NCBI GenBank assembly: GCA_016617855.1
Contig: JAECUM010009736.1
Span: 1-64,000, forward strand
Length of the DNA stretch: 64,000 nucleotides
Direction of reading: 5' to 3'
Source: Megalonaias nervosa
Taxonomy: Eukaryota; Mollusca; Bivalvia; Unionida; Unionidae
A program made the translations under genes and the position numbers. The notes below the pieces were generated by a model. It made no database searches, had not been told where the DNA came from, and saw nothing but the letters and a program-made list of their open reading frames with translations. This document shows, piece after piece, positions 13,870-31,711 of the stretch (position 1 is the stretch's first letter; each line of letters opens with the position of its first letter).

Positions 13870-13917
13870 AATTTGTTTTGCAATTTTAATTGGTATGTCT
13901 TTTCTATAGTATTGCGT

Positions 13918-13933
13918 AGCCCTGAAAAGGGCT
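13918..13933 (-). terminator. Histone-mRNA-like 3' stem-loop, copy 1
   Basis: On the minus strand AGCCCTTTTCAGGGCT forms a perfect 6-bp stem with a TTTC loop, differing from the metazoan histone consensus GGYYCTTTTCAGRRCC only at the outer pair. An A-rich leader precedes it (ACAAAAAAACC) and the purine motif AGAAAAGA follows 12 nt later, like a histone downstream element. It lies 37 bases past the stop of the gene at 13,970-14,323. Confidence 0.7.
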
Positions 13934-13969
13934 GGTTTTTTTGTTGATGGGGAGTGATGGCAATCTTTT

Positions 13970-14323
13970 CTACTGTCTAAGATTGCGTCCCCGTCTGGCA
14001 GCAGGCTTTCCTATACGATACGGCCTGCTTCTGCGGAAAAGGAAGGGAAACTCTTTGGTGTCCACACGGCAGTCGAAAAAACCTCTGTCTGGTTCTTGCT
14101 GCTGCTGCTGTTGTTGTTGCTGTTCTCTCTGCTTCTCAGGTCTGTACTTCTCTGTCCATTGTTCTTTTTCTTTCTTGATTTCCTCTCTGAAGACCTCTTC
14201 TATCAGGTCTTGGGCTATAGCTAACATCCTGACATTCTCCATCTCTTTCAGGCTTAGGTATTGGGTTTAGCATGACACGATGTAAACTTCGTTCAGCTTG
14301 GCTAGTCTGGAAGGCATCTTCAT
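13970..14323 (-). pseudogene. Element B glutamine-rich protein with shared promoter and histone-like 3' end
   Basis: The ATG at 14,323 follows the third promoter palindrome by only 2 bases. The frame has a TAA after 18 codons (near 14,267) and then stays open to 13,970. The readable part has a charged helix (AIAQDLIEEVFREEIKKEKEQ), a run of nine glutamines encoded by CAG/CAA (about 14,095-14,125) and a basic tail (RRSRPYRIGKPAARRG). No enzyme motif is seen. Its 3' end carries a histone-like stem-loop. A polyQ plus basic tail suggests a nuclear regulator, by inference. It resembles the genes at 13,126 and 30,225 in composition rather than in alignable sequence. Confidence 0.45.
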
Positions 14324-14377
14324 AGGTTGACGAGTCAACAGTGGATGACCAGACAGGAGACCAACCCGCTTTATATG
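14324..14377 (-). promoter_or_regulatory. Shared promoter cassette, copy 3
   Basis: Near-palindrome GTTGACGAGTCAAC at 14,326-14,339 and a minus-strand TATA box (CATATAAAG, 14,369-14,377) again with a 31-bp spacer. Confidence 0.75.
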
Positions 14378-14499
14378 GTTCATACGCGGACGCGATAGAA
14401 AACATCCTTACTTGGTTTTTGTTGAGTTGGAACGTTATGAGAGAAAGTCAAAGAGCATATATTCACAGTCTTTTTCTCAACAAACAAACACAGTTTCCA

Positions 14500-14535
14500 A
14501 AACACAACATCATTTATTCAACCAACAATCAACTA
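14500..14535 (-). promoter_or_regulatory. Candidate polyadenylation signal after the protease gene
   Basis: GAATAAATG on the minus strand (about 14,512-14,520) lies just past the protease stop, so this gene appears to use ordinary polyadenylation, unlike the neighbouring stem-loop gene. Confidence 0.4.
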
Positions 14536-15112
14536 CTAACAATTAACAATAATATCAAACAATTGTTTTTGACAAGGTTGACAACGTAGCGAAATCATGT
14601 GAGATTTCCATTGACGGAAGTCATGAGGCCATTGATGTACACTAAATTTCATAGCTAAAGACAAAAGATAGCCAGAATGGTCACAAAACCATCGATCTAC
14701 TTTCTCATCGTTTCTAGAAGAGTGCCGATCAAAATAAGTCACTACATGTTCTAAAGGGTATTCAAGACTGCGTTGATGAAGAAAATACACACAATATTGT
14801 CCACACACCATGGAATATGTGCCTTGTAATTTCACATTATTGAATCGTGTCGTCTGGGCATTTCTTCTCATAAAGTCAATGATGTCGTCTTCCAAAGGGG
14901 GTAATCCATACGAATCAAAATATTCCACACAATCCTCTTGAGGGAAGTAGACGGCAACCCAGTGAGTTCCTGGGAGATGACTTTCGTCCGTGTTGATGAC
15001 ATAAGCTTGAAGGTTTGCGATGAGGTAGTTCATCTTTAGCGCACACGACAGGATTCCAAGAAGCTGTATACGAACTATTATTCAAAAGGTAATAAAGTTC
15101 CCAGGTATCCAT
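14536..15112 (-). pseudogene. Adenain-like cysteine protease of element B, one frameshift
   Basis: The first ~35 codons (start 15,112, MDTWELYYLLNN...) are in one frame and the rest, down to 14,536, in another; the slip lies near 15,000-15,030. The second part shows the C5 protease triad: His in GTHWVAVYF, an acidic residue in EYFDSYG and Cys in MVCGQYCVYFL, with an oxyanion Gln before the Cys pair. In adenoviruses and Polintons the enzyme cleaves capsid and core precursors at short GG/GX motifs during virion maturation. Several element B proteins carry GG motifs that could be substrates. Length (about 190 residues) fits the family. Confidence 0.85.
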
Positions 15113-15136
15113 TTTTTGTTTTGTTGTTTGTTTTTT

Positions 15137-15643
15137 TCACAGGTAATGATAAGTCATCAATTCAATTCTGACTTTTTGTTTGAAACGCTCTGTCAAGTAG
15201 CCGTTTCTTCGCCTTGTCTCCCAACTCTGGGCTAAGAGAGCTTCGATGCGATAGATCTCTAGAGTAGTCAATGGAGGGCGGGAATGATCACGCAAGTCTT
15301 TATACCACCCATGCAACACTGCTTCTTCTGAGATGAGACTCCAAGCGTCGTCCAGATACTCGTCCAATTTTTCTTCTTGACTCATCATCAGACATTTATC
15401 GTGTTGAATTTGACTGGGATGATCGTTTTGACATCCATAACAATCTCTCTTGGTCAATTCAATAATTTTATCCGCCAGGTGCTTAGCAAAACAGGACACT
15501 AAATGTTGTTCTTGTTCTGGCCATCTGGATTTGCCCACTACCTCGTCCTTTTTATCTTGGAGTTGGGGTTCTGTTTTCACGCTATCCTCCCATTCCATTT
15601 CCAAAGATTCTCTATCGTTCAATGAGGGATAGGAGTCTTCCAT
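15137..15643 (-). CDS. Conserved Polinton-type small protein of unknown function
   Basis: A 168-residue intact frame starting MEDSYPSLNDRESL. A cysteine/histidine cluster (DCYGCQNDHPSQIQHDKC, around residues 65-84) resembles a motif I recall from adintovirus/Polinton hypothetical proteins, possibly a metal site. The N-terminal third is acidic and the rest helical and charged. It lies between protease and major capsid genes and overlaps the capsid frame by about 25 bases, which suggests tight packing of late genes. I cannot assign a function. Confidence 0.6.
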   Translation of the reverse strand: MEDSYPSLNDRESLEMEWEDSVKTEPQLQDKKDEVVGKSRWPEQEQHLVSCFAKHLADKIIELTKRDCYGCQNDHPSQIQHDKCLMMSQEEKLDEYLDDAWSLISEEAVLHGWYKDLRDHSRPPLTTLEIYRIEALLAQSWETRRRNGYLTERFKQKVRIELMTYHYL

Positions 15644-16983
15644 TGTTTCTGATAGTCTAGAATGACTTCTCTCAAACTGTTGATTTCGATGGTATTATCG
15701 AATTCGGCATACAATATGACGTTGACCGTCTCGGTGAGAGCTTCTGCAAAATAAAGTTCCACACGCAGTTGACCAGATTTTATAGGGTGGAAATGACCCT
15801 TGTCGCTGCCTTGGTCTGGAGTGAAATCAAAGGCCCACAAAGTGTAACCTCCTACATAATCTTCGTACGAAATACCGTGACTGGTGTTGGTTCCTAGTTG
15901 TCCGGCAGCTTTGTACAGGGACAAGTACGATCTCAAGTAATTCTTCTGGGCAAAGTTAGGTTCAAAGGGTCTGGTACACAAGGTCTTACCATCGCGACTG
16001 ACTTCGATCTTGGATACTCTGTAGTGCTTAAACTGGAAAGGATTTTGATCGTGGGCTCCGTCGAGGGCTGCATTACTGACGATGCCAACTATTAAACCTT
16101 TGGGCTACTGTCCTTGAACAGATGATCTTCGATCTTGGATCGGAGTCCAGCAGCAATGGTGAATGTTTTCACTTCTACAGGTCGTATCGGATACTTGGTG
16201 GTCGATCTGCTCAATGTTTGACTGATGACGTTTCCCGCTTTAGGTAACACTTCTACGCGACGCAAGTAAAGTCTGGCTTCTTTTATGATGGTTTTGTACT
16301 CGTTGGCATGAGCCATCCAATGGAAAGCGGCACTGCTGCGATTGAGTCTCAAGCGAATATCCACTCTGTTCAGCAAATACTTGTCTTGCAACCACATGTC
16401 CAAATGCAAGTGATCCATCAGTTCGAAACTACGAGCTTGCAGGATTTTCCTTCTACGGTTGTTAAAACCCACATTGAGAGGATAGTCATCGGGCTGTGTC
16501 GTTAAACGTGTTTTTACCTGCGGTGTCAGGTTTCCATACCACAAAAGCATCTAGATGAGTGTTCCTGACCTCTTTTCCTTACGTCAAGAGATTGTCTAGG
16601 TACGCTCGGTAAGGGTAAGTATCCATACTGCTGCTGACCAGTTTGTCATTCAAGTACAAATCCACTTCGCTGAACAAGGAATGCATGAAATTGATGACGG
16701 GAACTACTCTGGCATCGGCTCCCGGATTGGTGTTGTCGGTTTAGATCACTTTCAGTTTCAGATACAAGTAACTGCTATCCAGATTGATGTAATCTTCGGG
16801 CTGTCCTTTGATTTCAAACTTGATGGGAGATGAATCCGTCAAAGAGGAGACGGGATGAAATTCGACCCATTGGGATTCTTGCATCGTCATCATGGTGGGT
16901 GGCATGGCAAACAGATCCAGTTCCGACTTGGAACAAGCACAAGACTCTCGGTGCATCATTTTCTTTCTTTTATAAATAGTCAA
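15619..16983 (-). pseudogene. Element B major capsid protein (double jelly-roll, F54H12.2-like), broken
   Basis: Four collinear pieces read as one protein of about 450 residues: the start (16,983, or the ATG pair near 16,957) with KSELDLFAMPP and DYINLDSSYLYLKL; NFMHSLFSEVDLYLN and YPYRAYLD near 16,590-16,690; the middle 16,092-16,550; and the end with GYTLWAFDFTPD and AEFDNTIEI. In-frame stops lie at 16,741-16,743 and 16,579-16,581, and frameshifts near 16,500 and 16,100. The signature is that of the F54H12.2-like family widespread in animal Polintons, which I take to be the hexon-like major capsid protein. Capsid assembly from this copy is impossible as sequenced. Confidence 0.75.
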
Positions 16984-17422
16984 AAACGTCTAACTCTCGG
17001 ACAGTTTTTCTTTTCTTAGTCTTTCTAGCTCTAGTTTTGTGAAATCCCCTCAAGGGCTGTTTTCGTCCTCTTTTTCTGCCTTGTCGTTGCTGTGGCGTCA
17101 GGGAATCAGGAATGCCTGACTCGGCATTGCCCAGGGCATTTATAGGAGTTTTTCGCCGACCCAGAATGTCTTTACCCGTTTGAAGCAAGACATTTTTGCC
17201 TGCTCTCAAGAAAGCTTCTTTATGATTTTGTTTGTCAATGATGACATTTTGGAGAAATTCTTTGCCGTACGTCAACGCGACATCTTTTAAGGTGTGCAAT
17301 CCCCGTGACACCATCGGTTTCAAAACGGGAACCACTGTACGAAAGGCTGATTTTAGCATATCACCTAAACCATATCCTCGCTGTCCAGCGACCCCTTGGT
17401 ACACAGGATACATGACGGACAA
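16970..17422 (-). CDS. Core or minor virion protein with basic tail
   Basis: A 150-residue intact frame. The N-terminal part has a small glycine-rich segment (GQRGYGLGDMLKSAF) followed by an amphipathic helix, as in the pVI/pX-like cement or core proteins of adenoviruses and Polintons. The C-terminus (RKRGRKQPLRGFHKTRARKTKKRK) is strongly basic and would bind DNA and enter the nucleus. GYGLGD could be a protease site. The frame overlaps the capsid gene start by 14 bases. The identification rests on composition and position between the two capsid genes. Confidence 0.55.
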   Translation of the reverse strand: MSVMYPVYQGVAGQRGYGLGDMLKSAFRTVVPVLKPMVSRGLHTLKDVALTYGKEFLQNVIIDKQNHKEAFLRAGKNVLLQTGKDILGRRKTPINALGNAESGIPDSLTPQQRQGRKRGRKQPLRGFHKTRARKTKKRKTVRELDVFDYL

Positions 17423-17426
17423 AAGG

Positions 17427-18340
17427 TTAGAGTAATCGTTTTCGAAAATGGAGTTTCACTGTGACTTTCCCTTTGGTGAATGGAATATTTTGTCCCAGAT
17501 CTCCTTTTATAGTAATGTTGACATTGTCGAAATAAGACTTACTGACGGGCAAATAGTGAGGATGTACAAATTCGCGGTGAACGTGATAGGTGTTTCCACC
17601 TTCCTCGTCAGCGTTCGTGGCAGAATCCACTTTGAAAGGAATGACACGCAGTAACGGTACGGAGGTGTGTCCCACCACGTTGTACTCCACCACATCGGAG
17701 TACACAAAATATAAAATTCAGTCCTTGGTTTATTTCTACAGGAAATCGAAAATATTTCGCAAAATCCAAGTTCACGGTCACGGTTGGTATTTCGTTTCTC
17801 ATCTTGATCATCCTGCGGTCTCACCAAAAATGTCATATAAGTCAGGACAAAATGTAATGGCCAATACTTTGTCCTCTGAAAATTTGATCAGTAGGCGACG
17901 AGCTATTTTGTGGTTCTCGATCGTGACACTTCTTCTGGCTTTCACCAAGCTTTTACCAAACATGAAAATGAACCTGTCGGCGATGGAGCTCACCAAATGT
18001 TGACCACTAAAATAATAGCCCGCAGGAATTGTCAACAGATAAGTGGAGCGATTAGTTTTGGGGTCTTGTGTTTTCATAAAGTCAGTTATAGTGGCACGTT
18101 CATTCATGGCTTGTTGCACTTGCGGGTCATGAACTCGCACCGTAAAAGTGTTTTGATTTTTGACGATTTTTATTTGTGTAGGGTGAATCATTTCCACCAA
18201 AGCCACTTCCCAATGGGCTTCGTGATCCAATTGGATGACTTGAGGTAATCTGGCCGTGAAACAGCACAAAGTGTTATTGGGAAACACCTCCATGGAACTG
18301 TCACTGGGTAACGTTAAGTAAAATTGGTTGTTCCTAATTC
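17427..18340 (-). pseudogene. Element B penton-like minor capsid protein, frameshifted
   Basis: The best N-terminus is in the frame with FYLTLPSDSSMEVFPNN just upstream of 18,293, a stretch typical of Polinton minor capsid proteins; no ATG precedes it, so the start was lost or is the internal Met at 18,293. The segment 17,808-18,293 has WEVALVEMIHP. The C-terminal piece 17,427-17,705 (VVEYNVVGHTSVPLLRVIPF ... KVTVKLHFRK) ends as expected. At least two frameshifts lie between 17,705 and 17,808. In the family this single jelly-roll protein forms the vertex pentamers. Confidence 0.72.
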
Positions 18341-18385
18341 CACAGTTCTAGTGTCCGAGGGGTCACTGGAAGTCAGAGGAGTGTC

Positions 18386-18649
18386 TTAAAGAGGATGATT
18401 AGGGTGACTGTTGGAAGGGAGACTAACGTTGGACACAAGACTCCCGCTCTTGCATCCGTTAGAGGAATATTTCAGAGACGGATTGGGAAGAAGGTAACCA
18501 ATGCAACTGCTATGTAAAATGATCCACCATTGTTTGTCTCCTTGTTGCAAACTCAAATTGGTAATGGCAGCAACGATGACACAATACACCACACAGATTT
18601 GGCAGAAAAAGACGATTTGCGTTTTAGGCACACGTTCTCCACACCACAC
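18386..18649 (-). CDS. Small membrane protein conserved in Polintons
   Basis: The 87-residue frame starts MWCGERVPKTQIVFF. Residues about 10-33 form one transmembrane helix (QIVFFCQICVVYCVIVAAITNL), and a second weaker hydrophobic segment contains SSCIGYLLPNPSLK. This two-part pattern with a GYLLP-type ending is one I recall from hypothetical proteins of animal Polintons. It probably sits in a host or viral membrane. It overlaps the tail of the integrase frame, so only a short integrase extension or a shared segment is possible. The frame is intact. Confidence 0.5.
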   Translation of the reverse strand: MWCGERVPKTQIVFFCQICVVYCVIVAAITNLSLQQGDKQWWIILHSSCIGYLLPNPSLKYSSNGCKSGSLVSNVSLPSNSHPNHPL

Positions 18650-19837
18650 ACTAGGATTGCTTTTGTGGATTTTGCAGAGAAGAACTGGGCGACGGAGTGG
18701 TTACTGCAGTAGCTGAGGCTGTGTTGAAGTGCATGATGGTCATTTATTTTATAGTCGATGAGTTGCGAAGCGTCGATCCAAGAGTCAAAACTGGGAGGAT
18801 ATCCTTTCCAACGTACTTTGACTTCTTTTGCACGTCGTTTTCCCATTTTACGAATTCTTCGATCGAGAATGATTTCTATCTCGTACACGTCGTCTTCTTT
18901 TTTGGTCACACGTTGTAGCTCGGGCAAGTAAAACGTTCCTTTAAACACTTTCCCGTTCATGTCTTCCAATTTATAGACAGGAGGATAACGGCCACGCACT
19001 CGTTCAGTGACACGAAACAATTCGGTGGTCCAGTTGGTTAAGTAACCTTTGTCGAAAGTGCGTTTGGTTTTGCCAATGCGTACCCAATCTCCTGATGCCA
19101 ACATTCCACCTTTCTTGGGGACAGTCACTGTTGGGACGTAGCAAACAGGCGCTCGAGGACGGTCACTTCGCTGTCGGGAGTCACTTCTTGGGGGGCAAGC
19201 CCAATGCTCCGATGGTAAGATTGGTTGTACAATTGGACGAGGTGTGGCAAGACGTCGATGTACTTGAGAGTGTGTTGATGCGTACAATATTTCCACATGC
19301 GTTCTTTCAAGGTGCGTTGAAAACGTTCCACGATGCAAGCTTTGGTTTCGGGAATCTCGGTGGTAAAAAAAAATGAATGTCACGTTTCTTCAATTCTTTT
19401 TGGAAAGCTTGGTTCAGAAATTCGGTGCCTTTGTCAGTTTGCCATCGAAGAGGATGACGACCGCTTTGTTTCAACACCAGTTTGAGGGCTTTAACTAACT
19501 CACTGCTCGATTTGGAAGTCAATGGCACGACCCAAGCAAATTTGGAAAAGACGTCGATGACACAAAACAAATATGTGTAGGTGGCCAAATAAGAGGCATC
19601 AGCTAAATCGGCTTGCCATTGATTATCGATGCCCTTCACTTGGGTGCCACTTCTGGGAAATGTTCGTCGAATGGGTTTGTGTAAGGTGTTCGTGGCTTGT
19701 TCTTGTAATCAGCGTTGCACTTGAGGTAAACGGATACTTTTCAGTCGAGTTTTGGCAGCACAATACAATTTCTGAACTCCTCCGTAACCTGCGGAATGAA
19801 CTGGATCGTAATAAATGTTGGCTAACACCTTCACCAT
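18553..19837 (-). pseudogene. Element B rve integrase with chromodomain, one stop and two frameshifts
   Basis: The start is the ATG at 19,837. A TGA lies at 19,709-19,711, a frameshift in the A9 run near 19,366-19,374 and another near 19,140-19,160. The catalytic triad is present: Asp in WQADLAD, Asp in RWQTDKGTEF and Glu in the MERFQRTL segment. The C-terminal part carries a chromodomain (YEIEIILDRRI ... VRWKGYPPSFDSWI), typical of Polinton integrases and thought to steer insertion to certain chromatin. The true end may lie shortly after the chromodomain, as the last 50 codons overlap the small membrane gene. Confidence 0.88.
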
Positions 19838-19840
19838 TTT

Positions 19841-20513
19841 TTAATAAGTGATCCACTCTTTACTGATGCTACTCTGAATGGGACGTGGGGGTGGTTTAGA
19901 AACGGATTTACGTGTCCGATGTGCCACGGGTGTAGAAGTTGAAGGTAGTGGTGGTGGTGGTAATGGGATGGCTTTGGTGTTCTTTTGTTTTTTCCCTTCT
20001 GGTTTCCCTTCTTTCTTTTCCACTTCTGTCGAAGGAGGAGTGGACATCATCTTTTTAACCCAAGATTTAAGTTCTTCTCTTTGGGGTGTAGTGGATGGGG
20101 TCAACAAGGACGCTGCAATCTTGCTAGGGATGGGAACTGCTGACGGTGTTTGAAAGACTTCTCGTACCTCTTCTTCCTCAGGCATCCGTGGGGATGAGTC
20201 TGTCTTGACCACTGGGGGTGATGGTGATGGACTTTTCATCAGAGACTTAAAATCTTTCAGTGTGGGTAGAGCTGTTTCGTCTAAAGCTTTCTGGTGAAAG
20301 AGTTACATTCGTTGCAACAATTGACCGTACCGTTGCGATTTTTTCCTTTTCTGACAAATTGCTGCGATCCATCAACAATTGCAATTCGTGTTGTAACTGG
20401 GAAATTTCGGTCAAATTAGGATTGGGAGGTAAATGCGGTGTTCGTTGTTCTTGCCAAATATGGTATTCCATCCATCGTTTGTAAAGCACTAAAGCCAGTT
20501 TTCGTCCTTCCAT
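19841..20513 (-). pseudogene. Element B helical/proline-rich protein, one frameshift
   Basis: Two frames join by a one-base slip near 20,285: the N-terminal part (20,247-20,513, MEGRKLALVLYKRWMEYH...) and the C-terminal part (19,841-20,239). The first has a helical segment, LQHELQLLMDRSNLSEKEKIA, that resembles a short conserved segment of Polinton proteins of unknown role. The second is rich in Pro, Ser, Lys and Glu and is probably disordered. The stop lies three bases from the integrase start. Function unknown. Confidence 0.5.
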
Positions 20514-20585
20514 CGAATTTCATGGATCACGTCTGAGATCGTTTCACTCGAAATGTCCCTTTGATCGTATTGGACCTTTTTATCT

Positions 20586-21050
20586 TCATTCTTCCAGGAT
20601 GTTTCCCATTGCTCCTTTCAGCAAGGGCCCTCCTATTTTTCCCATTACTCCTTTCAGCAACATGGGCAAAATTGGTAAAATTCCTCCGCGTTGCACCAAC
20701 ATCTTTTTCTTTTGACTAATGTGTATTTTCTTTTGCACCATTTGGCGAAGAACGTGTCTATGTTTGGCTAAGCATTCTTTCTGGTGTTTAGACAAAGGTA
20801 TTGTGCCTTTCAAGACATTCAGACAACATTCGCACATTGTACCGATGACGTCTTTGGAGGCAGTTTGAATTAGTTTATTTTGCATGGGTGGAGGAGTTTT
20901 GGACAGGACGGACAACATGTCCCAATGTTTGGCTAAACGAGGTGCAGTCCTTTCCTTTTCTTTCCTTTGGGGGTAGAAGAGGAATGTCTTTTTGAGGTGA
21001 CATCTTTCTAGGTTGGTTCGTTGGTTCCGTGGCACACAGCAAAAATACAC
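20586..21050 (-). CDS. Basic virion-like protein, paralogue 1
   Basis: Residues from about 40 on form a recognisable unit: a helix with CECCLNVLKGTIPLSKHQK, a basic stretch (KHRHVLRQMVQKKIHISQKKKML) and QRGG followed by a Gly/Leu/Pro-rich hydrophobic end. I recall this arrangement from many Polinton and adintovirus small proteins; the QRGG fits an adenain cleavage site. The start is uncertain: an ATG at about 21,002 lies in another frame. The gene at 21,380-22,097 carries the same unit, so the two are paralogues. Probably a capsid-associated or core protein. Confidence 0.5.
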   Translation of the reverse strand: MYFCCVPRNQRTNLERCHLKKTFLFYPQRKEKERTAPRLAKHWDMLSVLSKTPPPMQNKLIQTASKDVIGTMCECCLNVLKGTIPLSKHQKECLAKHRHVLRQMVQKKIHISQKKKMLVQRGGILPILPMLLKGVMGKIGGPLLKGAMGNILEE

Positions 21051-21078
21051 TAACGTCGGTGACTTGTCACACGGTCTT

Positions 21079-21372
21079 TTATCCTTTTTTGGGGACTATC
21101 GCTTCGTCATAAAGGTGACGATGTGTTTTCCAAAATCGCCAAAGAATCCTCCTCTTTAATGGCTCCTCTTTTTCTTTGGACGAGTGTCTTTTCTGGGAAT
21201 GACGTCGATGTTTGGCTAAGCGCTTTTTAGGATGCCGTGACGGTCTTTTTCCTTTTCCTTTTCCTTTTTGGGACCGAAGAAGGATCACAACGGTAACGGT
21301 GTGTACTTCTTGGAGGTGACATCTTTGGGCGTTCAGCAGCACAAAAACGCTGATCTGTATTGTTTGCCTCAT
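21079..21372 (-). CDS. Small Lys/Arg-rich protein
   Basis: A 97-residue frame with a basic middle (QKGKGKGKRPSRHPKKRLAKHRRHSQKR). Its DNA resembles the 5' part of the next gene (both have AGGTGACATCTTT and TTTGGCTAA near the same spacing), so the two regions may be a tandem duplication of a core-protein gene. The frame could be a remnant rather than a working gene. Function, if any, would be DNA condensation, by composition only. Confidence 0.35.
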   Translation of the reverse strand: MRQTIQISVFVLLNAQRCHLQEVHTVTVVILLRSQKGKGKGKRPSRHPKKRLAKHRRHSQKRHSSKEKEEPLKRRILWRFWKTHRHLYDEAIVPKKG

Positions 21373-21379
21373 GTCTTTC

Positions 21380-22097
21380 TTATACTGGAATGCATCTCCA
21401 ATGGTTGTCTTTACGTCTTATCAACTTGATGACAGGCAACACACGGGACAGTTCTTGCTTGGACAAATCCAGTAAACTCTGTAACACACCCGTTCTCTCT
21501 TGAACTTTGATTTTGGTGGCAGGTACTTTGTGAGCAGCGGAAGAGGGTGTCACCGCTGGAGGATAAGTTTTTGGAGACGTTGATTTGCGGGTAGAAGCTG
21601 TTTTCTGTGGACTTTTCTTTTCCCGAGTCTGTGAGTTAGTCTTGACACCATTGCTCTTTTTCTTTTTTTCTGGGTACGCTTGGGCGTGGCTTTTTCTTGG
21701 GGACGACTTTGGGAGCATTAGGATCCCATTTTATGAAGGAACGAATGATGACACCTCCTAGAGAACCGCTACCTCCAGGTTTCAAAATGATTTGCTTTTT
21801 AGTTTGAGTGTCGATGCGAGGATCGGCTAGCTGCGTCAAGGCGACTTTGTTTCTCTCACAAAAATGTTTGGTTTGATGTGGAATCTGAATGACGCCTTGC
21901 AGTAATTGACGTGCTGTCACCGTAAACCATCGTAAGACTTCTTTTTGAGACGAGCGTCTAAGACACGAGCAAGTATTTGTGGATTTTTTTCGCGACTGAT
22001 ACCGTACGAGACACGAGTCAATTTGATGGGAAGATGAGACTGAAGGGACGTCATGTTGACGATGTGTGAGACAAAGCCAAAGTGACCGAGTTTTCAT
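21380..22097 (-). pseudogene. Basic virion-like protein, paralogue 2, one frameshift
   Basis: The N-terminal frame (21,636-22,097) contains the unit seen in the gene at 20,586: TARQLLQGVIQIPHQTK, a basic stretch with CERNKVALTQLADPRID, and a GG motif (LKPGGSGSLGG). The C-terminal frame (21,380-21,718) continues with a Lys/Ser/Pro-rich tail and a helical end; the slip lies near 21,640-21,710. The GG motif is a possible protease site. As in its paralogue, a structural or core role is likely. Confidence 0.45.
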
Positions 22098-22119
22098 AGG
22101 CTGTTTTTGGTGATTGTGA

Positions 22120-22848: not shown

Positions 22849-22893
22849 AGTAGTGTAAGAAATGTCATGTTTGACACGAAGAAAGAGAAGACA

Positions 22894-22906
22894 ATAGTTT
22901 TTATAC
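22894..22906 (-). promoter_or_regulatory. TATA box of the packaging ATPase gene
   Basis: AGTATAAAAACT on the minus strand, about 50 bases upstream of the ATG at 22,848. Confidence 0.6.
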
Positions 22907-23239
22907 TTTTTTCAGGACACGTTTATTGTCATCTTTAATTGTGAACAACACAAAAGACAAAAATACACAAAAGCCAGATGGTTAAGTACATGAATAAAAC
23001 ACACATCAAAACGATCATAGTGGAATATAAACAAGTCTCCGTACAACATTTGCGGTGATCAAGGGGTGAAATCATAGGGGTAGTGTGTAATGTTCTTAGA
23101 GTCTTTACACTCCTTGGCACAGTCACACAAGAGTCCTCACGGAATGGCCTTTCGGGGATGTCGATAACGGTCCTATCCTGAAGAGAGTGGTTTTCATTCT
23201 TTCACGACTTCTTCTTCTGACACTGTCACTAACATTGAT
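22907..23239. other. Spacer between ATPase and accessory genes
   Basis: I see no convincing frame; the open stretch 22,935-23,126 (-) has a hydrophobic end but no recognisable start context or family. Confidence 0.3.
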
Positions 23240-23742
23240 TTAAAATTTACTGTTTTCACGGAATTTTTTAATTTTTTTAGGATTACAAATCGTTTGCATA
23301 GTGTGCCACTTCTTTTGTCCAAGGCTCATAACCCCAACTTTTCCAGTCACGTACATCTTACCAGTGAGGGTTAAGTCACAAGCTACACACACGTCGTCGT
23401 ACACATCTTCAGTGCCTAAAAGTTGATGAATCTTGTTTTCCTGTAGAGGCTGAGAAGTATCAACATGAAAGCGCAAAGCTTTGAGCAGAATGAGTCTCTC
23501 GTGTACATTTAAAGGACCACTTTCATGCTTTTTGGAGTGGTATGTACTGTTCGTAAATAGTCCACAAGGAATCGGCTGGTAAACGAAATCCCAGAAAGCA
23601 AGTCACTAAGACACACATTACACGTCGACCCCAATTCAATGGACACAGTTCTCGTAATAGACGATCGTAATCCTCTACCGTTTGAATAGTGTCATTGATT
23701 TCCTTCCACGGAATCTGTTGTATCGCGAATGATAAAGGTCGT
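23240..23742 (-). pseudogene. Accessory protein X1, lost start and frameshift
   Basis: A TATA box (GGTATAAAAACGG, about 23,756-23,768) precedes a frame whose expected ATG appears as ATA at about 23,740 in a good start context. The first part (TVEDYDRLLRELCPLNWG ... FRLPADSLWTIYEQ) resembles X2 and X3 in having an LPxxSL/LPxEL-like helix, and ends in a stop near 23,535. A second frame to 23,240 carries KALRFHVDTSQP and a possible metal cluster (CVAC ... HTMQTIC). I infer one gene with a frameshift near 23,520-23,540. No known family. Confidence 0.4.
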
Positions 23743-23755
23743 GTTATGGTAGTCC

Positions 23756-23768
23756 GTTTTTATACCCT
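23756..23768 (-). promoter_or_regulatory. TATA box of accessory gene X1
   Basis: GGTATAAAAACGG on the minus strand, close in sequence to the TATA boxes of the ATPase and BIR genes. Confidence 0.5.
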
Positions 23769-23886
23769 CTTTGGTGTAAGGTAATAAGTGTCCTTTTTGA
23801 ACAGCCTCGATTTTTTTTAGTACCGTACCAAAAATGTTCAGTCCCTAACTCACACACCACACGTCGCACAGAAGTTTCCTCTTGAA

Positions 23887-24213
23887 CTAGAAGAATTGTT
23901 CTTGTAAAGATTTGTTGTAATCCTCTAACTCGTCAATTGGAATTCGGTGTATTAGGATCACCTTGTAAGTTGAATGAGTGGCATCCAAAAATTTATGAAT
24001 TTCACGCGATTCATAAATGTCTGACCACTGGAACACTTTCATCAGAATCAGTCCTCTTATAGCATTCAGGTACCAGTGGTTCAAACATCGGTGACGTAAC
24101 GGAAGCAATGGTTCTTTGCGTTTCGCTTGTATTTTGACGAACTCGCAGTAAATGCGTTCTCTCAATTCCAGGGGCAAACCACGAATCTTCTCTTGTAAAG
24201 TATCCATAACCAT
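23887..24213 (-). CDS. Accessory protein X2 with F-box-like N-terminus
   Basis: 108 residues, intact. Residues about 10-26 (IRGLPLELRERIYCEFV) match the LPxELxxxIY pattern seen at the start of F-box-like domains. The following part is helical with two His/Cys-containing stretches. X3 directly upstream has LLTLPKDLKEKIYKEIW at a similar place, so the two are likely tandem paralogues. An F-box role would mean hijacking of a ubiquitin ligase, but only the first helix is recognisable, so this is a guess. No similarity to a known viral family is claimed. Confidence 0.5.
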   Translation of the reverse strand: MVMDTLQEKIRGLPLELRERIYCEFVKIQAKRKEPLLPLRHRCLNHWYLNAIRGLILMKVFQWSDIYESREIHKFLDATHSTYKVILIHRIPIDELEDYNKSLQEQFF

Positions 24214-24214
24214 G

Positions 24215-24607
24215 TCAATTAAACACTTCTCCTAGAGCGAAAGTAATGGACAAAGTGAGTAATTTCTGACCACTACCATTCCAGGAATCGGTCAAGAACG
24301 TCAATACAATCTTCAAATATAAATGATCTAAAGCGGAATATTCGGAAGAACGCACCCTTGATCCAGAGACATCTGACTTGCTTGTTGACTTTGTCAATTT
24401 CCTCTTGTGAATTTCTCGACATAAAAGTTCTAAAGTCACATAAAGAGATTTGGCTCTGGCAACTCCCAGCCAAATTTCCTTGTAGATCTTCTCTTTCAAA
24501 TCCTTTGGTAATGTTAGAAGATTATTTTTCAAATTGGGTTTAAATATTTGTCTAGGGGATGTCCAACGTTTGACTCCTAGCCACGTAGGTGGTTTCTTAC
24601 ACGACAT
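24215..24607 (-). CDS. Accessory protein X3 with F-box-like helix
   Basis: 130 residues, intact, ending one base before the X2 start. It begins MSCKKPPTWLGVKRW, a basic aromatic leader, and has LLTLPKDLKEKIYKEIWLGVAR at about residues 30-51, parallel to X2. The middle is rich in Arg/Lys/Ser, and the end is hydrophobic (LTFLTDSWNG). I infer a paralogue of X2 and, more distantly, X1. Function unknown. Confidence 0.5.
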   Translation of the reverse strand: MSCKKPPTWLGVKRWTSPRQIFKPNLKNNLLTLPKDLKEKIYKEIWLGVARAKSLYVTLELLCREIHKRKLTKSTSKSDVSGSRVRSSEYSALDHLYLKIVLTFLTDSWNGSGQKLLTLSITFALGEVFN

Positions 24608-24619
24608 GGTGTGCCCACT

Positions 24620-25227
24620 TCAATGACGAGGTCCCACTAAAGGTAGGTAGTGACAATCCGGAGACCATCCAGCATGTTCCAGGTAATCTTTCTTCTCCCA
24701 CTCGTGAAGTAACACACCACAACTGAAGCACTTGACTTTATCCCCTTGGCCCAAGTAGATAAATCTTCGGGGGTAGGTCCTCCCTGATATTTTGGCCATT
24801 TTCTTCGGAAGGTTTGGATACGACTTTCATAGTCGCAGTATTCAGGCAAACGCACATGGAACGAATATTCGTCTTTCACATGTTCATTTCGATGAGGGTA
24901 CTGTTAAATATGTAGGAGTTTGCTCAGTTTTACATGACATCCGTAGGGTGGTAGCCGCATGGTTTCATAATAATGACATTCACCATGAAAACCAGTAAAG
25001 TGAACAGGTGTACGATGACGAGTGGCATCGCTTTCGCATCCGTCAGGTTTGACACGCACAGCATCACTTTCCATGGTAGGCATGGTAGTAGTAGTTATAG
25101 CAAAGTTCCCATGATGATGTGGTGCTGAATCGCTAACGTCATAGCGTACGTCATCCCTGCCATCGCAAGGCACAGCATTGCACTCGAGTGTGCTCTTGCT
25201 TGATACTTGCTGTTTGAAAGGATTCAT
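24620..25227 (-). pseudogene. BIR-domain (IAP-like) protein of element B
   Basis: The likely start is the ATG at 25,227 (a TATA box lies at about 25,285-25,296). One frame runs to 24,637 with a TAA at 24,904-24,906; near 24,748 the coding continues one base out of phase to the TGA at 24,620. Across that slip the pieces form a BIR domain: ESRIQTFRRKWP, then PTPEDLSTWAKG, then CFSCGVLLHEW, an EHAGW histidine and a final Cys. The zinc ligands C-x2-C-x16-H-x6-C are all present. Viral BIR proteins block host cell death or act on innate signalling. The 110-residue N-terminal part is unrecognised. No RING domain follows. Confidence 0.82.
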
Positions 25228-25283
25228 CTTTCTCTCGCTTGGCAATGGTAGTCACAATGAACTATCGGTCTCGAACGTTGTCC

Positions 25284-25296
25284 TTTTTTATATGCT
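25284..25296 (-). promoter_or_regulatory. TATA box of the BIR gene
   Basis: CATATAAAAAAGG on the minus strand, about 60 bases upstream of the proposed ATG. Confidence 0.55.
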
Positions 25297-25343
25297 GACC
25301 AATATCGTCGTGACCGTACTGTAAAGTGAAGTGATTGGGAAGC

Positions 25344-28300
25344 CTATATTCGCTTCTGGTACACGATTTGATAGACTTTTTCCAAGGGCCTGCTATCGAT
25401 TTTGGTGTGTGGGTAAACGTACAATCTTGTGCGGTTCGTGGGTGGTCACTTTAAAATTTCCATCCTGCCCAGACTGCAATGCTTCTTTCAAGAAGCCAAA
25501 GTTCACCAGTCGACTGGTGCGATAATTGAGAGTCAATCCTTTCACTTTACACTCCATTTGTACTTTTCCTTGTGAGTCTCGGTATTCGTAACCGTAATTT
25601 TTGGGATCGCCACTTGCAGAACTTAGAATCTTGTCGTCGGGATGCTCGTCCGTCCAGGTTTCTGAACGGTCTCCTTCGATGACAGGGTGAGGTTGACCCA
25701 GACCATCGATGTAAATGCAACTGTCCGTTTCAAAATACAGCACACGATCTCCTAACAGTTCTAATGCTTCGTACAGTTTTAAACGAGCATGGGCTGTCAC
25801 GTAAGCCGCAATGATGACATTTCCAAATTCGTCGGCTTCTACAAAGTCCAGTTCGTCTTCGTAATTGACTAGAATCAAGGCCTCACGAACGACGTCCACG
25901 TGTTTCAAGTATTTGGTTTTGTTGTGAATCATCTGGAAGTAGCGAGAAGGTTCTGTCAAATACTCCTTCTTGGGTAAACACGGTAGTAGTGCCATTTTGC
26001 CCCACAAATAATATAACATCACTTTGGCAAACGATCGCCTTCCTTCGTTTTTCTCGACGTGATCTAAAGTGAAGCCTTCCTGCTCCCAGTATTTCTCTTT
26101 AAATTTCTTTTGTTCTTCGGGAGTGTCGCACCAGGAAGTATAGCCACTGGCTTCTTTTTCAGTTTCAAAAAAGCATTCACGTAGTCTTCGAAAATGCGAT
26201 TTTTTGTCTCGTCGCCCTTGTGCTATTTTCTCTCTTGGGAAAGTGATAAATTTCGTACACTTCTAACAGTTGGTATCCCGAGTCCAGAGCTATAAACAAT
26301 TCCACGCTGACCCACGTTCCCGTCAAGGCGCGGTCTTCCTGAGTGTGCTGACATGGTTGGTCTTGGTTTCACGTTTCGGCACAAGTACGCCACCAGGGAA
26401 ACATCAACTTTCCTTGGCAATGGTGAGGTAAAACGGGATGGTACAAGCACGTGGGAGGCAAGACTTTACATTTGGTCAATCCTTCGTATTGGCGAATGTT
26501 GTCCACGTTGATGCGTTCCGTCAGCAACTGTGGGTGCCCTGCGGAAAAGTGATAGTATTTGCACACGTATGGATACAGCGAACACACGTCCAAGTATTTG
26601 ATTTCTTCTCCTTTCTCTTCGTCGGCTTGGTATAGCAAACAGGTGGCATTCGTCCGTCCTCCGTACAAGTTGTCCCTTGGGTTCAGTGGGCCCACCAGCT
26701 TGTAACTTTCCACGATACGCTTAAACTCGGGATCGGTTTTCAAACAGTGATCTTACTCGTGTTACTACATTTCTACCACTTGGTATCCTTGCTCTTCTAA
26801 CTTCAATCGCCGCTGACAAGTGGCCTGGTACAAGTCTTCCATGGTCCGTTGTAAAAACTGATTTTTAGTGTTACGTTGAGGGTAGCAGATAGGACATCCA
26901 TAAAATAAGCACCCGTTAAACTAGTACACGATCATGGGGTTTTCTAAGCCCCAGCCATCCACTGAATACCTTCCGATGGCTTTCTCGCCTTCTCCGTTGC
27001 GAGCGTGTTGGATACATTTGTCTTCCTTGTCGCACAAGTAATGTAACCAGCGTAGGGCTTTGACCGAGTATTGACGTTTGGCAAAGTTGGTCCTTTGAGG
27101 ACTGATGACAGCTAGGGTGCTTTCGGGTATGAATCGTTAGCGGTACACTAAGGAACACGCTTTGGCAATGTTGCAGGCTTCTTTCAAAGGATCGATTCCT
27201 CCGTGCTCCATGAATAATTCTCGAAATATTCCACAGGTACTCCGTAAAATGTCTACGTCGGAACGACAATATTTTAAAATTTCTTCCTGAAAGTCGAAAG
27301 GGTCCGAGGCGTGAGTGTGGTATCATACGTAGAAAGCTTCTCGTTGTTCGGTACGCATGTTGTCGGGGTCGTAGTAGTGAGCCTCGGGCAAATGAGGTAG
27401 AACGGTGTGTTGATTGGCTTCGGTATTGAAAAAGTGCGGAAAATAGCCTTTGACCATTTCTGTCATTCCAAACCTTTTAGGCAAGCGACTCAAAGGCATG
27501 GCCAAGTAACTCATCGAATCTTTAAACTGCACTTGTCCCACTTGCATGGAAATGATTTTGGCTCCGTTCAAAGTGACTTTAGGACGTTCGGTACTTTGTT
27601 CCGTATAGTATCTGAAAAGAAAGTGCCCATCGTATCCTGAGAAATTGTGAGCCATCACCGTCGCATAGCGATGATAATCTCCATAACGTTCGATGTCTTC
27701 TTGGCTCCACGTCTCGTCGATAGGGTTTAAGATCCATTGGGCGCAATCGGTCAGCGTGTTCGGTCTACGAAAGGTTTTTCACGTCCTCCAGGAATTTTGC
27801 TACAGTGAGGGCAATGAGTAAAGATAGTCTCTTGGATGTACTTCCCACACGCTCGATGAGCCACGCAGAAATTAGGAATGTGAATGCCAGTCTCTTGCAT
27901 GCATTCGAAATCGAAAAAGATGAACTGACCTTTCTTCTCGTCATTATCTTCTTCTTCATGTTTGGATTGGTATTTTTGAATGTAGCATAGGTGTTCCAAG
28001 TCCACGATTTGGCGACAAATGTGACATCGCTTCTTTCCTGAACATACGTGCGCCTTGGCATTATTGGTACGTATGCCTTGTCCACAAGTAGGGCACAATC
28101 TCAGGAGCTGACAAGCACTTTTCTGCTGTGAACCTTGCGTCTTTAGATGTTGTTGGTAACAGAAAGGGCCGATAAACGTGCGCTGACAAGCTGGGCAATG
28201 CACTCGTTCTTGTCCTTGGTCCAGACAGGGTTTAGAGGCTAAACATCCCTTACATTTCGATCCACAATGCTTGTGTTGCTCTCGATTGTTATAGCCATAG

Positions 28301-29343
28301 TCACATTTCTCACAGTAATAACCGTATCCCAGAAATGCAGTGATACTGGTAATAGCATGGAAATGTTCATCGTGATGATAGACGTGAATGTATTTTCCGT
28401 CTTTGAAATTTTTGCCTCGAAATAACAGAGGTCAGCGCACATCTTGAGGGTGTATTTTCAAGATGTAGCGTGGAGCCAAGACGTCTTGCAACTTTTGTAT
28501 TTCAGGAATGCCACAGGGTGTGCCTTTGGATATCCCCGCTTGCTGTAACAGGAGTTCTACTTCTATTTGTTGTTTGACTAGGTTAGATTTTTGAATAGTT
28601 TGCCAGGTTCTTTTACATTCTGCCGTGTCGTTCTTGTCGGCATACGTTCCTTCCACCACGATGGCACGGGCTAAACACACCTTGACTTGAGTGTTGTTAA
28701 TTTGAACGAGGCTCTTTTTGGTGCTGCGAAGATTTTCTACCAAGATCACCTTTTTGCCATGTCCTGTCCCTTGGGGAAGAGACACGTGGGTCATGAACAG
28801 TGTCGCTTTTCCGTTGGTGATGTGAAACTTGTCGTTGGACTGTTGCACGTGTTGAATCTTGTCCATGACTTTGGAAGGTGTCAATTCTGCCGGGCTGCTA
28901 AACTCGATTCAAACGGTGGACTTCATACTGTCATGATGAACGGAAAGTCTCAAGCGATTGTCTTCTTTGGCTTTACATTTCTGTTTCAGTGTAGTTACCA
29001 AAGAATTCCACACATTGGTGATGAACCCCTCTACTTTTTCCAACGGTACGTCGGACTTGAAATCTTTAAACTTTACCGTGTACGTGTAGGCTGTGGTTCT
29101 AAATTTTCTACAGGAGCGTTTGTCAGTCTCTCGAATGTGGTAGTAATTTTCAGGGTTTACTGGTGGTGATAGACTTTGACTTGGTATAGACTCTCTGGGT
29201 CTGGATTCTGGTTCACTCATCTCATCTTCAAAATTGCTGGCATGAATTTGAGCCAAGACTTCAACTATTGTGCGAGGCGATAAATCACGTTTCTGCATCT
29301 TACTTTCTTCTCCTTTCTTTACGAAATGATGCGATCGTTTCAT
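25344..29343 (-). pseudogene. Element B protein-primed type DNA polymerase B, many frameshifts
   Basis: At least eight collinear pieces make one protein of about 1,250 residues. N-terminal part 28,432-29,343 (unrecognised). A Cys-rich zinc region lies at 27,751-28,203 (CPACQRTF, CPTCGQG, CHICRQ), followed by exonuclease motif I (FIFFDFECM). Exo II is at 27,630 (HNFSGYDGHF). Polymerase motif A (DVCSLYPYVCK) is at about 26,570, motif B (RRSFAKVMLYYLWGKMA) near 26,030 and motif C (YFETDSCIYI) near 25,730. The C-terminal end lies in another frame to the TAG at 25,344. This is the Polinton replication enzyme, which copies linear DNA from a terminal protein primer. Length and order are normal; the frame is not. 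Confidence 0.88.
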
Positions 29344-29384
29344 CTTGAAAGCAAAACGTCAAAATGACTACATTTGAAACGCCA

Positions 29385-29479
29385 TGGACCGCTATATATC
29401 CATGTCAGGCTCGGTGTATATATAAAGGGTTGCTGCCTTCCCTCTCAGTATTCATTTCGCTCTCAAGCTGACCAGCACG
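29385..29479. promoter_or_regulatory. Divergent promoter between polymerase and zinc-knuckle genes
   Basis: Minus-strand TATA GGATATATAGCGG (about 29,390-29,402) lies 50-60 bases before the polymerase start; plus-strand TATA TGTATATATAAAGGG (about 29,415-29,429) lies 50-60 bases before the ATG at 29,480 and is followed by an initiator-like CTCAGTATTCATT. Confidence 0.6.
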
Positions 29480-29947
29480 ATGGAGGAACCTACACAAATC
29501 GAACTTCTGATTAGAGCTTTGCGAGGTGTCATAAGAAAGTTTTCTTCAGACAAACCGACGGACCACTCTCCCTCCTTTCGAGATAAAAGTCAAGATCCTT
29601 GCTATATCTGTCAGAAGAAAGGGCAATGAACTACGGAATGTCCAAATCGTCAAAAAAGCAAGACCAGTGTCAGAAGAGACAAAGTTCAATATACCTGTTA
29701 TCATTGTCAAGAGAAAATATATTGCTCTTCAGACTTCCCTAAGAAACAACAGTAGCAGGAGGAGGAGGAAGAAGAAGAGGTGCCCTCGGGGAAAGAAGAA
29801 CTCCGCCACGTTCAGAAAGAGAAGACAGCATAGAAAAGAAGACGAGAAAAATGTGAGGAAGAAGAGGAGGAAAAAGCTGTGAAAGTGAAGAAAATCAGAA
29901 AACAGAGAGAGTGTAATAAGAAAAGAAGATACAGAAGAAGTCTATGA
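29480..29947 (+). pseudogene. Zinc-knuckle (CCHC) protein of element B, three in-frame stops
   Basis: One frame of 156 codons from the ATG at 29,480 to the TGA at 29,945, broken by TGA 29,627-29,629, TAG 29,753-29,755 and TAG 29,831-29,833. The first stop falls inside a CCHC knuckle (CYIC, then QKKG, then the lost His position, then C). A second, degenerate knuckle CYHC follows. The C-terminal half is Glu-rich, then Lys/Arg-rich. CCHC knuckles bind single-stranded nucleic acid. It is one of two genes on the plus strand of element B. Not previously known to me in Polintons. Confidence 0.6.
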
Positions 29948-30178
29948 ACTTTTTAAAAGTGTTGTGTTATGTTGTATTGTGACATTGAATTGTAAATATT
30001 TGTACCAGAATAGACCAGACTGAAAAAACGTAAGTGTCTCTTGGTTTTGATTGTTTCGAATAATAAGGACTTACAATCACGCACTCAGAGCACGTATATC
30101 ATAGGGAAAAACAAGGGATTTTTTAGTTTTAATTGATTTTAGCAAAATGAATACTATCTCTTTTCGAAAGAAGTGAGT
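29948..30178. other. Short spacer, no gene
   Basis: AT-rich sequence between two convergent genes. No AATAAA on the plus strand was found in the first 100 bases after the zinc-knuckle gene. Confidence 0.4.
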
Positions 30179-30194
30179 GCCCCTGAAAAAGACC
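30179..30194 (-). terminator. Histone-mRNA-like 3' stem-loop, copy 2
   Basis: Minus strand GGTCTTTTTCAGGGGC matches the histone consensus at 14 of 16 places; the stem has one mismatch and two wobble pairs. GAAAAGAGA follows 13 nt downstream. It lies 30 bases past the stop of the gene at 30,225-30,854. Confidence 0.55.
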
Positions 30195-30224
30195 GTTGTG
30201 TGTTTCTTTTTTCTTAGAACAAAC

Positions 30225-30854
30225 TTAGGAACGAGAAGCAATCAACTTTAACTGCCTTAAGCCTTTGCCACTGCCAAGGCCTACTTCTGGACTTGTTCCT
30301 GTCAATGATTTGGTAGAAATCACTAGGGGTGGTATCTCCGGTGTAGTAACAGGGTTAGACTGTTTGGCTCGGGAAGGTCTTTTTCTCTTGGGTCGTAATA
30401 AAGAAGTCTGATACATTTGTTTCAGACTTCTCAACTAGGCCAAAAGTTCCAAGAGTACCGTTACTGTTTGAGGTTCACTGTTCTCCTTCCCTCATAGACC
30501 TTGTGTCTTCTCTGCTGCTTCTTCCTGTCGCTTCCTTCTTGCCTCTTCTTCTTCTCCCTGTTGCTGTGCAAGGAGAAATGCTTGTTCTGCCTCTTTCTGC
30601 TGCTGTAAAAATTTCTCCAATTCTTCTTTCTGTCTCTGTTTAAAATCCTCGACGTGTGGTAAAGAAGGAGAAGGTGGCGAAGGTACTGGTACTGGAAAAA
30701 ATTCTTGCGAAGAGAGAAAATCTACTAAATCCCAATTGAGATCGATCTCGTCTGGACGTAGCGCTGTGTTAACTTTGGTAGCCACTGCTATGCCATCGCT
30801 TCTCGTCTCCACAGCCGGTGCACCCCAATTCATTGTCTTCTTAGTTTCAGTCAT
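30225..30854 (-). pseudogene. Element B Gln/Glu-rich coiled-coil protein, two in-frame stops
   Basis: The ATG at 30,854 opens a frame that stays in phase to 30,225 and is broken by TGA 30,492-30,494 and a TAG near 30,436. The product (about 210 residues) has an acidic patch (DEIDLNWDLVDFLSSQEFF), a proline-rich spacer, a long coiled coil (QRQKEELEKFLQQQKEAEQAFL) and a basic C-terminus (LRPKRKRPSRAKQ). The acidic-aromatic patch resembles transcriptional activation domains, so a regulator is plausible. The TATA box is at 30,904-30,916, and a histone-like stem-loop follows the gene. Confidence 0.5.
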
Positions 30855-30903
30855 GTTTCACAGAACAATGTCGCATCGATTCACTGCGCACAGACGCTAG
30901 CGC

Positions 30904-31045
30904 ACCTATATAGGGAATGTGACATCACAGGTAGCTTTCTTCGGATCGGAAGACAGACTCCGCGAAGTGACTGAATTTTGTAACGCATGTTGGGATTGGT
31001 GAACAATTTCAATCCTTTTCGATCCGGTCTTCCACTATAAATAAA
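30904..31045. promoter_or_regulatory. Divergent promoter region near the right end of element B
   Basis: Minus-strand TATA CCCTATATAGG (about 30,904-30,914) serves the coiled-coil gene. Plus-strand TATA CTATAAATAAAC (about 31,034-31,045) lies about 45 bases before the small plus-strand gene at 31,087. The region between holds related inverted pieces around GATCGGAAGAC and GATCCGGTCTTCC. Confidence 0.55.
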
Positions 31046-31086
31046 CGCGGTTCACTTCATTCCCTCCACCTGTTCCTCTTCACAAG

Positions 31087-31305
31087 ATGTGGAACAATGT
31101 GGAATCGTCTACTTTCGTATCGTTTTTGTTTTTCCGTACGGTCTTGCCCATGTAGGTGAGGTCATCATGGAGAATCATTAGGATCACCGAGACATGCTTT
31201 TGGAAAAGAAGGACCTATGTGGAAAGACAAGGTTGTCTGAAGCGAGTTCTGATTTATGGACCAGAGGTTAGACGAAGTTTGAGGAAGAGAAGAAGACCTA
31301 TGTGA
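31087..31305 (+). pseudogene. Small basic protein gene with histone-like 3' end, one in-frame stop
   Basis: From the ATG at 31,087 one frame runs to the TGA at 31,303-31,305 with a single TAG at about 31,153-31,155. The 72-residue product has a hydrophobic N-terminal stretch (TFVSFLFFRTVLPM) and a basic C-terminus (EVRRSLRKRRRPM). It has its own TATA box (31,034) and a histone-type stem-loop 43 bases after the stop, which together argue that this small frame is a real transcription unit. No family is recognised; it does not look like a core histone. Confidence 0.45.
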
Positions 31306-31347
31306 TGCCCTCTATGTTAACAAAATGTTGCTAACATAAAACCCAAA

Positions 31348-31363
31348 GACCCTTTTCAGGGCC
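31348..31363 (+). terminator. Histone-mRNA-like 3' stem-loop, copy 3
   Basis: GACCCTTTTCAGGGCC matches the histone consensus at 15 of 16 places, is preceded by CCCAAA and followed 13 nt later by AAAAAGA. Confidence 0.75.
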
Positions 31364-31457
31364 ACTCCACTGTCTCAAAAAGATTTATTCTTTCTTGCCT
31401 AAAAAAGATTTAAAACATACTATACTATCCACTGACACGAACGCGAATGCATAACAC

Positions 31458-31570: not shown

Positions 31571-31636
31571 ATTCCCATATTCCCCAAACAGTCCCAGGCA
31601 GTTTGTTTGGGGTTTTTTTGTCCCTATAAAATTGTT

Positions 31637-31705
31637 CCCCAAACAGTCCCAGGCTGTTTTTACTTCTTTGGCCTTATATGCCCCAAACTATTCCACTACA
31701 CTACA
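31637..31705 (-). repeat. Right terminal inverted repeat of element B
   Basis: Reverse complement of the left terminus from GTAGTGTAGTGG inward. The inner motif CCCCAAACAGTCCCAGGC occurs a second time at about 31,586-31,603, so the right arm has a small internal duplication. Confidence 0.85.
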
Positions 31706-31711
31706 GCTGGC
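31706..31711. repeat. Target-site duplication, right copy
   Basis: GCTGGC, identical to 11,857-11,862. Confidence 0.75.

Follow-up and report, generated by a model that had tools for sequence, protein, structure and literature searches.

Stem-loops of the histone type behind three small viral genes

The 64-kb stretch of Megalonaias nervosa DNA analysed here (contig JAECUM010009736.1, positions 1 to 64,000; the window) contains element B, a decaying Polinton/adintovirus-like provirus of ~19.8 kb, in which three small genes, the SL1 gene, the SL2 gene and gene R, are each followed on their own strand by a stem-loop of the kind that animal cells otherwise reserve for the 3' ends of replication-dependent histone mRNAs (SL1, SL2 and SL3, respectively; Table 1). 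These are real viral genes, each carrying one or two in-frame stops here: the SL1 protein has 8 relatives in environmental data (66-81% identity), for the SL2 protein there are 11 with up to 81% identity, of which nine are 193-210 aa long, and tblastn places gene R over 77 codons starting at 31087. A reading of gene R as a non-coding RNA was dropped, as 14 copies show an open 77-codon frame.

The coordinates and strands of the stem-loops, first reported in an earlier reading of the window (the original prediction), were correct on re-reading. Measured against the 16-mer GGCYCTTTTCAGRGCC, from which all mismatches in the window were counted, SL1 matches at 14, SL2 at 13 and SL3 at 15 of 16 positions, so that the predicted figures of 14, 14 and 15 hold for SL1 and SL3 but are one too high for SL2. 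AC stands directly 3' of the stem in all three, and the purine motif claimed behind each of them is present, with AAAAGA starting 14 nt past the stem in 3/3. The stem of SL1 starts 36 nt and that of SL2 30 nt past the stop, and SL3 lies 42 nt past the stop of its basic frame, all within the predicted 30-45 bases; counted from the end of gene R as its 77-aa relatives show it, however, the distance for SL3 is 27 nt. Among the three, only SL1 keeps a complete stem (-9.0 kcal/mol, z -2.6); the histone-type signals of the window copy are partly damaged.

The Rfam Histone3 model (RF00032; curated cut-off, 34 bits) gave scores of 32.5 bits (E 1.7e-5) and 24.9 bits (E 0.012), and of 11.0 bits for the site at 30179, with no further match in the window at E <= 10; a whole-window Rfam scan at the gathering score returned nothing. 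A covariance model built from the three window gene ends and run on the window and on seven adintovirus-like contigs found no additional strong copy, the next best being L067, one of these contigs (E 0.16), and the tail of gene L (E 0.79).

When the 64-kb window was shuffled 5128 times with dinucleotide composition preserved, the shuffles yielded in total 12 matches with one mismatch, 206 with two and 2975 with three. Requiring AC plus AAAAGA at 10-15 nt left 2 matches over all 5128 shuffles, and no shuffle held two AAAAGA-bearing matches (0/5128), whereas in the real window three of three stem-loops have them; the motif and its distance were taken from the original prediction, and the comparison tests the composite in the form in which it was first described. 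All three stem-loops are genuine, and the composite signal is far above chance.

Table 1 Features of element B in the 64-kb window.
Feature	Position	Strand	Remark
SL1 histone-type stem-loop	13918..13933	-	2 mismatches; A-U closing pair, complete 6-bp stem
SL2 histone-type stem-loop	30179..30194	-	3 mismatches; weak in window copy
SL3 histone-type stem-loop (gene R)	31348..31363	+	1 mismatch; A at second stem base in window copy
Purine downstream motif AGAAAAGA behind SL1	13898..13905	-	
Purine downstream motif GAAAAGAGA behind SL2	30157..30165	-	
Purine downstream motif AAAAAGA behind SL3	31377..31383	+	
SL1 gene	13970..14323	-	one in-frame stop; tblastn extent 14323-13973
SL2 gene	30225..30854	-	two in-frame stops; tblastn extent 30854-30228
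Gene R, small basic protein, 77 aa in other copies	31087..31320	+	two in-frame stops; TATA-type box at 31036
Gene L, frame-shifted, upstream limit approximate	12939..13535	-	stem-loop at end in other copies, none here
Purine motif GAAAAGAGA at gene L end, without stem-loop	12931..12939	-	
Adenain-like protease gene	14536..15112	-	neighbour with ordinary poly(A) signal at end
AATAAA behind adenain	14513..14518	-	
Left inverted end, element B	11861..11935	+	AGCTGG flank read by eye
Right inverted end, element B	31633..31707	-	AGCTGG flank read by eye

The signal in copies across the host genome

A Histone3 search of the 2.19-Gb host genome gave 75 scored matches, the best of 423121 first-look candidates, which are neither a census nor a random sample and include neither the window's own sites nor the host histone sites. 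Sixty-six of the 75 exceed the 34-bit cut-off. In the stretches around all 75 matches (mostly 2.4-3 kb), one or more element-B genes are present in 67 and none in 8, and blastn found similarity to element B in 72/75; a core histone beside the match was found in 0/75 (tblastn, E 1e-4).

Stem-loops with <=3 mismatches numbered 113 in these stretches, and 109 were kept after four had been removed by hand as presumed chance or antisense matches (L092 (-), L113 (+144), L121 (+1715) and L137 (+1626)). The perfect 16-mer GGCCCTTTTCAGGGCC accounts for 63/109 and GGTCCTTTTCAGGGCC for 15/109. The second stem pair is G-C in 108/109, the loop is TTTC in 100/109, AC follows the stem in 104/109, AAAAGA starts at 14-16 nt in 98/109, and CCAAA or CCAAC precedes the stem in 83/109.

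The original prediction placed the signal on three element B genes, which is right for those three but not as a limit, since gene classes L, S and T also bear a histone-type stem-loop. One locus (L152) has, in order, adenain, the SL1 gene (a 37-residue match), the L gene and gene S, and all but adenain end in a stem-loop of their own. Taken together, the copies have stem-loop ends at as many as five viral gene positions (R, SL2, SL1, L and one occupied variably by S or T); the five never occur all together in any single examined stretch. The stems vary by gene: SL1 is closed by A-U, gene L has AGCCCTTCTCAGGGCT (L078, L096), and GGTCC is common in SL2. At another locus (L151), the SL1 gene and gene R lie within ~1 kb and face apart, as if the element core were missing or rearranged.

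Conservation of stem-loops and purine blocks

Identities were calculated pairwise over stem-loops other than the one by which each locus was found (37 rows of secondary stem-loops), which reduces but does not remove the bias of having chosen loci by Histone3 score. In the R type (n=17), identity is 95% in the stem-loop and likewise in the purine block (columns 11-20), compared with 66% in the 3' untranslated region (UTR; columns -27 to -12), 67% in the spacer (1-10), 83 and 65% in columns 21-40, only 37-53% in columns 41-100, and 78-93% in the upstream coding part. R-type stem-loops and purine blocks are conserved islands amid diverged sequence. In the SL2 type (n=14), identity is 88% in the stem-loop and 86% in the purine block vs 45-54% in the UTR.

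A stem-loop (<=3 mismatches, within 100 nt) was retained at 12/13 SL2 and 16/19 R non-primary gene ends (28/32), a sample that is not fully unselected, since one or more good stem-loops lay close by in each element; random stretches from the same loci, >=200 nt off any listed stem-loop, had none (0/3890). Of the four misses, one is an SL2 end with 4 mismatches, and the others are R ends at which 4, 5 and 8 were counted.

Comparison with host histone genes

A PF00125 search of the host genome gave 11 matching loci, and a gene-strand stem-loop with <=3 mismatches is present at 3/11. One is an H2A gene, 97% identical to typical H2A over 120 aa, with the C-terminus SQEY, which we take to be of the H2A.X type; it has GGCCCTTTTCAGGGCC 41 nt past the stop, followed by AGAAAAGA, with AAAAGA at 13 nt. 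At an H2B gene, the stem-loop stands 30 nt past the stop, departs from the 16-mer at one position and is followed by AGATAAGA. An H2B-like stretch (L154) has the exact 16-mer, but its own frame runs through the stem-loop, and the host comparison therefore leans on L157 and L159. The stem-loop seen most often in the viral copies does not differ in a single letter from that of a host histone gene, and the motif downstream of it is of the same kind. Together with the conservation of the signal in dozens of copies in the host genome, this strongly supports the original claim of histone-mRNA-type 3' ends.

Poly(A) signals and TATA boxes

Within 100 nt past the stem-loop, AATAAA occurs in 3/107 scored ends (2/109 were too short for scoring). 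Among the 70 scored ends that are not of the SL2 type, ATTAAA occurs in 1/70 and AATAAA in 2/70. The adenain-like protease gene has an AATAAA 48-52 nt past the last residue in two distinct copies, that of the window and that of one host locus (L104 = L150). Upstream of gene R, the start codon is preceded at 50 or 51 nt by a TATA in 32/42.

Element B and its surroundings

The inverted ends of element B are identical at 68/75 bases and are both flanked by AGCTGG, a 6-bp target duplication read by eye. Pfam matches to a protein-primed B-type DNA polymerase (DNA_pol_B_2, E 1.2e-11), a retroviral-type integrase (rve, E 1.7e-12) and a chromodomain (Chromo, E 5.7e-9) fall in pieces of broken genes. 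The adenain-like protease matches Peptidase_C5 at E 0.0017 and 18.5 bits, below the cut-off of 21.3, and has 72 homologues, several with PF00770, the conserved residues being present. The piece at 16092-16550, which had no Pfam match, is a candidate for the double-jelly-roll major capsid protein by its position. The window copy is decaying, because several genes are frame-shifted or interrupted. The proteins of the SL1 and SL2 genes and of gene R have basic C-terminal ends; these and the S and T proteins have no Pfam match above cut-off, and by Pfam none is a histone. A predicted model of the SL2 protein is one long helix, at low confidence.

Several further features were recorded in and around the element. 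A gene piece with a BIR (inhibitor-of-apoptosis) domain lies at 24620-24826 (-) (Pfam E 1e-10). The palindrome GTTGACTNGTCAAC occurs at 12034-12047, 13536-13549 and 14326-14339, just upstream of left-side minus-strand gene starts, and the copies at 13549 and 14339 are preceded by a TATA-like box, which might reflect a shared promoter or replication motif. By eye, a unit containing CTATCCACAC..AACG..AATGCATAAAACA forms tandem repeats at 12100-12740 near the left end, with a single copy close to the right end (31415-31455). Genes of other virus-like elements lie on both sides, at 1-5746 (a helicase at 1992-3629 and, near 4103, a match resembling an integrase) and 42994-54600 (a match resembling adenain, near 48.8-49.0 kb), and these regions are without a Histone3 match.

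Related elements and other viruses

The check on related elements, suggested with the original prediction, came out positive for the matches in the host genome described above but not for the seven adintovirus-like contigs, which are distant (30-44% identity in adenain) and in which relatives of the SL1 or SL2 proteins were not found either. These contigs (L067-L073) lie inside bacterial metagenome-assembled genome records of GTDB, probably as contamination. As the seven have no Histone3 match, the trait, observed here in copies within one host genome, may be restricted to one viral lineage.

In viral contigs, searches with single proteins or alignments found no relatives of the adenain, SL1 and SL2 proteins, and the strict stem-loop pattern had 0 matches. 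Looser patterns matched 53 and 13 contigs. AAAAGA at 10-15 nt is absent from all of the 53, which are from IMG/VR (22 distinct 35-mers). The 13, selected for AAAAGA, were rejected: each has <=5/6 pairs, and an open frame of >=128 codons crosses the site in 13/13.

Discussion

In the best reading of these observations, a Polinton/adintovirus-like lineage in this host closes several of its small genes with the complete 3' signal of histone mRNAs, namely CCAAA or CCAAC, a 6-bp stem with a UUUC loop, AC, and a purine element ~14-16 nt past the stem. In histone pre-mRNA, the U7 small nuclear ribonucleoprotein (snRNP) cuts 4-5 nt past the stem, and the 5' end of U7 pairs with the downstream element (PMC7026596). 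SLBP recognises the second stem base, G7, contacts A3-A5, and rises ~20-fold in S phase (PMC12775136); G7 is kept in 108/109 viral copies and lost in the window SL3. Host SLBP and U7 snRNP would, very probably, cut the viral transcripts a few nt past the stem in the same manner. There is a high probability, judging from the sequences of these gene ends, that the small viral genes thus end with a histone-type 3' signal yielding SLBP/U7-type mRNAs, which would be without poly(A), as are those of replication-dependent histones.

Since SLBP rises in S phase, such cleavage would make it moderately probable that viral expression is timed to DNA replication, perhaps supplying small basic proteins during viral DNA synthesis; that viral genes are tied to host S phase, as originally proposed, follows fairly from what the signal does for histone mRNAs and is likely. 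The SL1, SL2 and R proteins could, at a guess, be DNA-binding or virion proteins supplied in step with viral DNA. The arrangement as a whole would amount to a regulon of the histone kind, comprising as many as five separate small viral genes, at least some of them TATA-driven and with basic C-termini, whose SLBP/U7-made, poly(A)-less mRNAs follow DNA synthesis, and we regard this as reasonably likely.

A number of results speak against histone-type processing of these transcripts. All three window Histone3 scores are under the curated cut-off; SL3 folds with 4 pairs left (-4.3 kcal/mol, z -0.6) and has lost the G at its second stem base, SL2 folds weakly (-2.7 kcal/mol, z -0.5) with its pairing lost, and covariation over the three window copies is not significant. 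In the R type, coding identity also reaches 93%, and in the SL2 type, downstream columns 41-60 are 82-89% identical, equal to the stem-loop; the choice of loci by score has the same bearing, as does the lack of a Histone3 match in the seven distant contigs (41.5 kb in all). An Rfam search of the host genome for U7 gave no match, the control being likewise silent, and a U7-like pattern gave 14 matches vs 18 for the backward control, with no convincing gene among the 8/14 inspected. Finally, a possible poly(A) site, ATTAAA, lies <=100 nt past the stem in 28/37 SL2-type ends, and in the window an ATTAAA followed by GU repeats lies 28 nt behind the stem of SL1.

These ATTAAA motifs are what one would expect if the stem-loop and purine motif were conserved but the mRNAs were polyadenylated further downstream, the stem-loop aiding SLBP-dependent stability or translation, or if both types of end were made. 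There is precedent for such an arrangement, as histone genes of C. elegans and Drosophila have poly(A) signals 3' of the hairpin (PMC1924863). This explanation is nevertheless improbable given the scarcity of ATTAAA and AATAAA in the other end types. In addition, the purine block, which is required for U7 cleavage but not for SLBP binding, is conserved like the stem-loop. Within an account based on histone-type processing, the ATTAAA of SL2-type ends could be a backup poly(A) site.

That a host histone gene was the source of the viral 3' ends, which would since have been carried passively without function and remained alike through recent spread, would fit the identity of the 16-mer with that of host histone genes and the relatedness of the copies. 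It is hard to reconcile with R-type stem-loops and purine blocks that exceed the diverged non-coding sequence on both sides, or with three stem variants tied to different genes, which argue that the signals are old and have been kept, and we consider it very improbable. Chance resemblance might be entertained for the site at 30179, which is weak alone (11 bits), with ~0.6 three-mismatch matches expected per window. The host-genome copies, with 67/75 of the matches lying in element-B stretches, already refute it. The shuffle test, the retention at gene ends (28/32 vs 0/3890) and the IMG/VR contigs with a matching 18-mer, where AAAAGA at 10-15 nt is seen in 0/53, also speak against it, and its probability is negligible.

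Compared with the replication-dependent histone mRNA 3' end (RF00032), the viral ends share the 16-mer, loop, 5' flank, AC, purine element and a position ~30-40 nt from the stop, whereas their carriers are non-histone by Pfam, some stem variants are gene-specific, and the signal is known here from sequence. With Polintons and adintoviruses, element B shares PolB, an rve integrase with chromodomain, an adenain-like protease and inverted ends, but adds histone-type 3' ends on accessory genes, which the 7 distant contigs are without. The histone-like 'Histoid' genes carried by adomaviruses and tailtomaviruses (PMC11071296) likewise link small animal DNA viruses to histones; those, however, are histone-like proteins, whereas in element B the resemblance is confined to the RNA 3' signal.

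In the literature, covered mostly at the level of abstracts and with few subscription papers, no earlier account of 3' ends of the histone type was found for Polintons, adintoviruses or any other viruses. To our knowledge, no outside, viral user of the whole histone 3' signal was known before. If the interpretation is correct, element B and its relatives in this host would be the first viral users, and the first non-histone users in animals, of the histone 3' end, and the viral copies would constitute many natural variants of that signal. Poly(A)-selected RNA-seq would miss such viral transcripts. The arrangement points to a way in which Polinton-type viruses may link the expression of their genes to DNA synthesis in the host.

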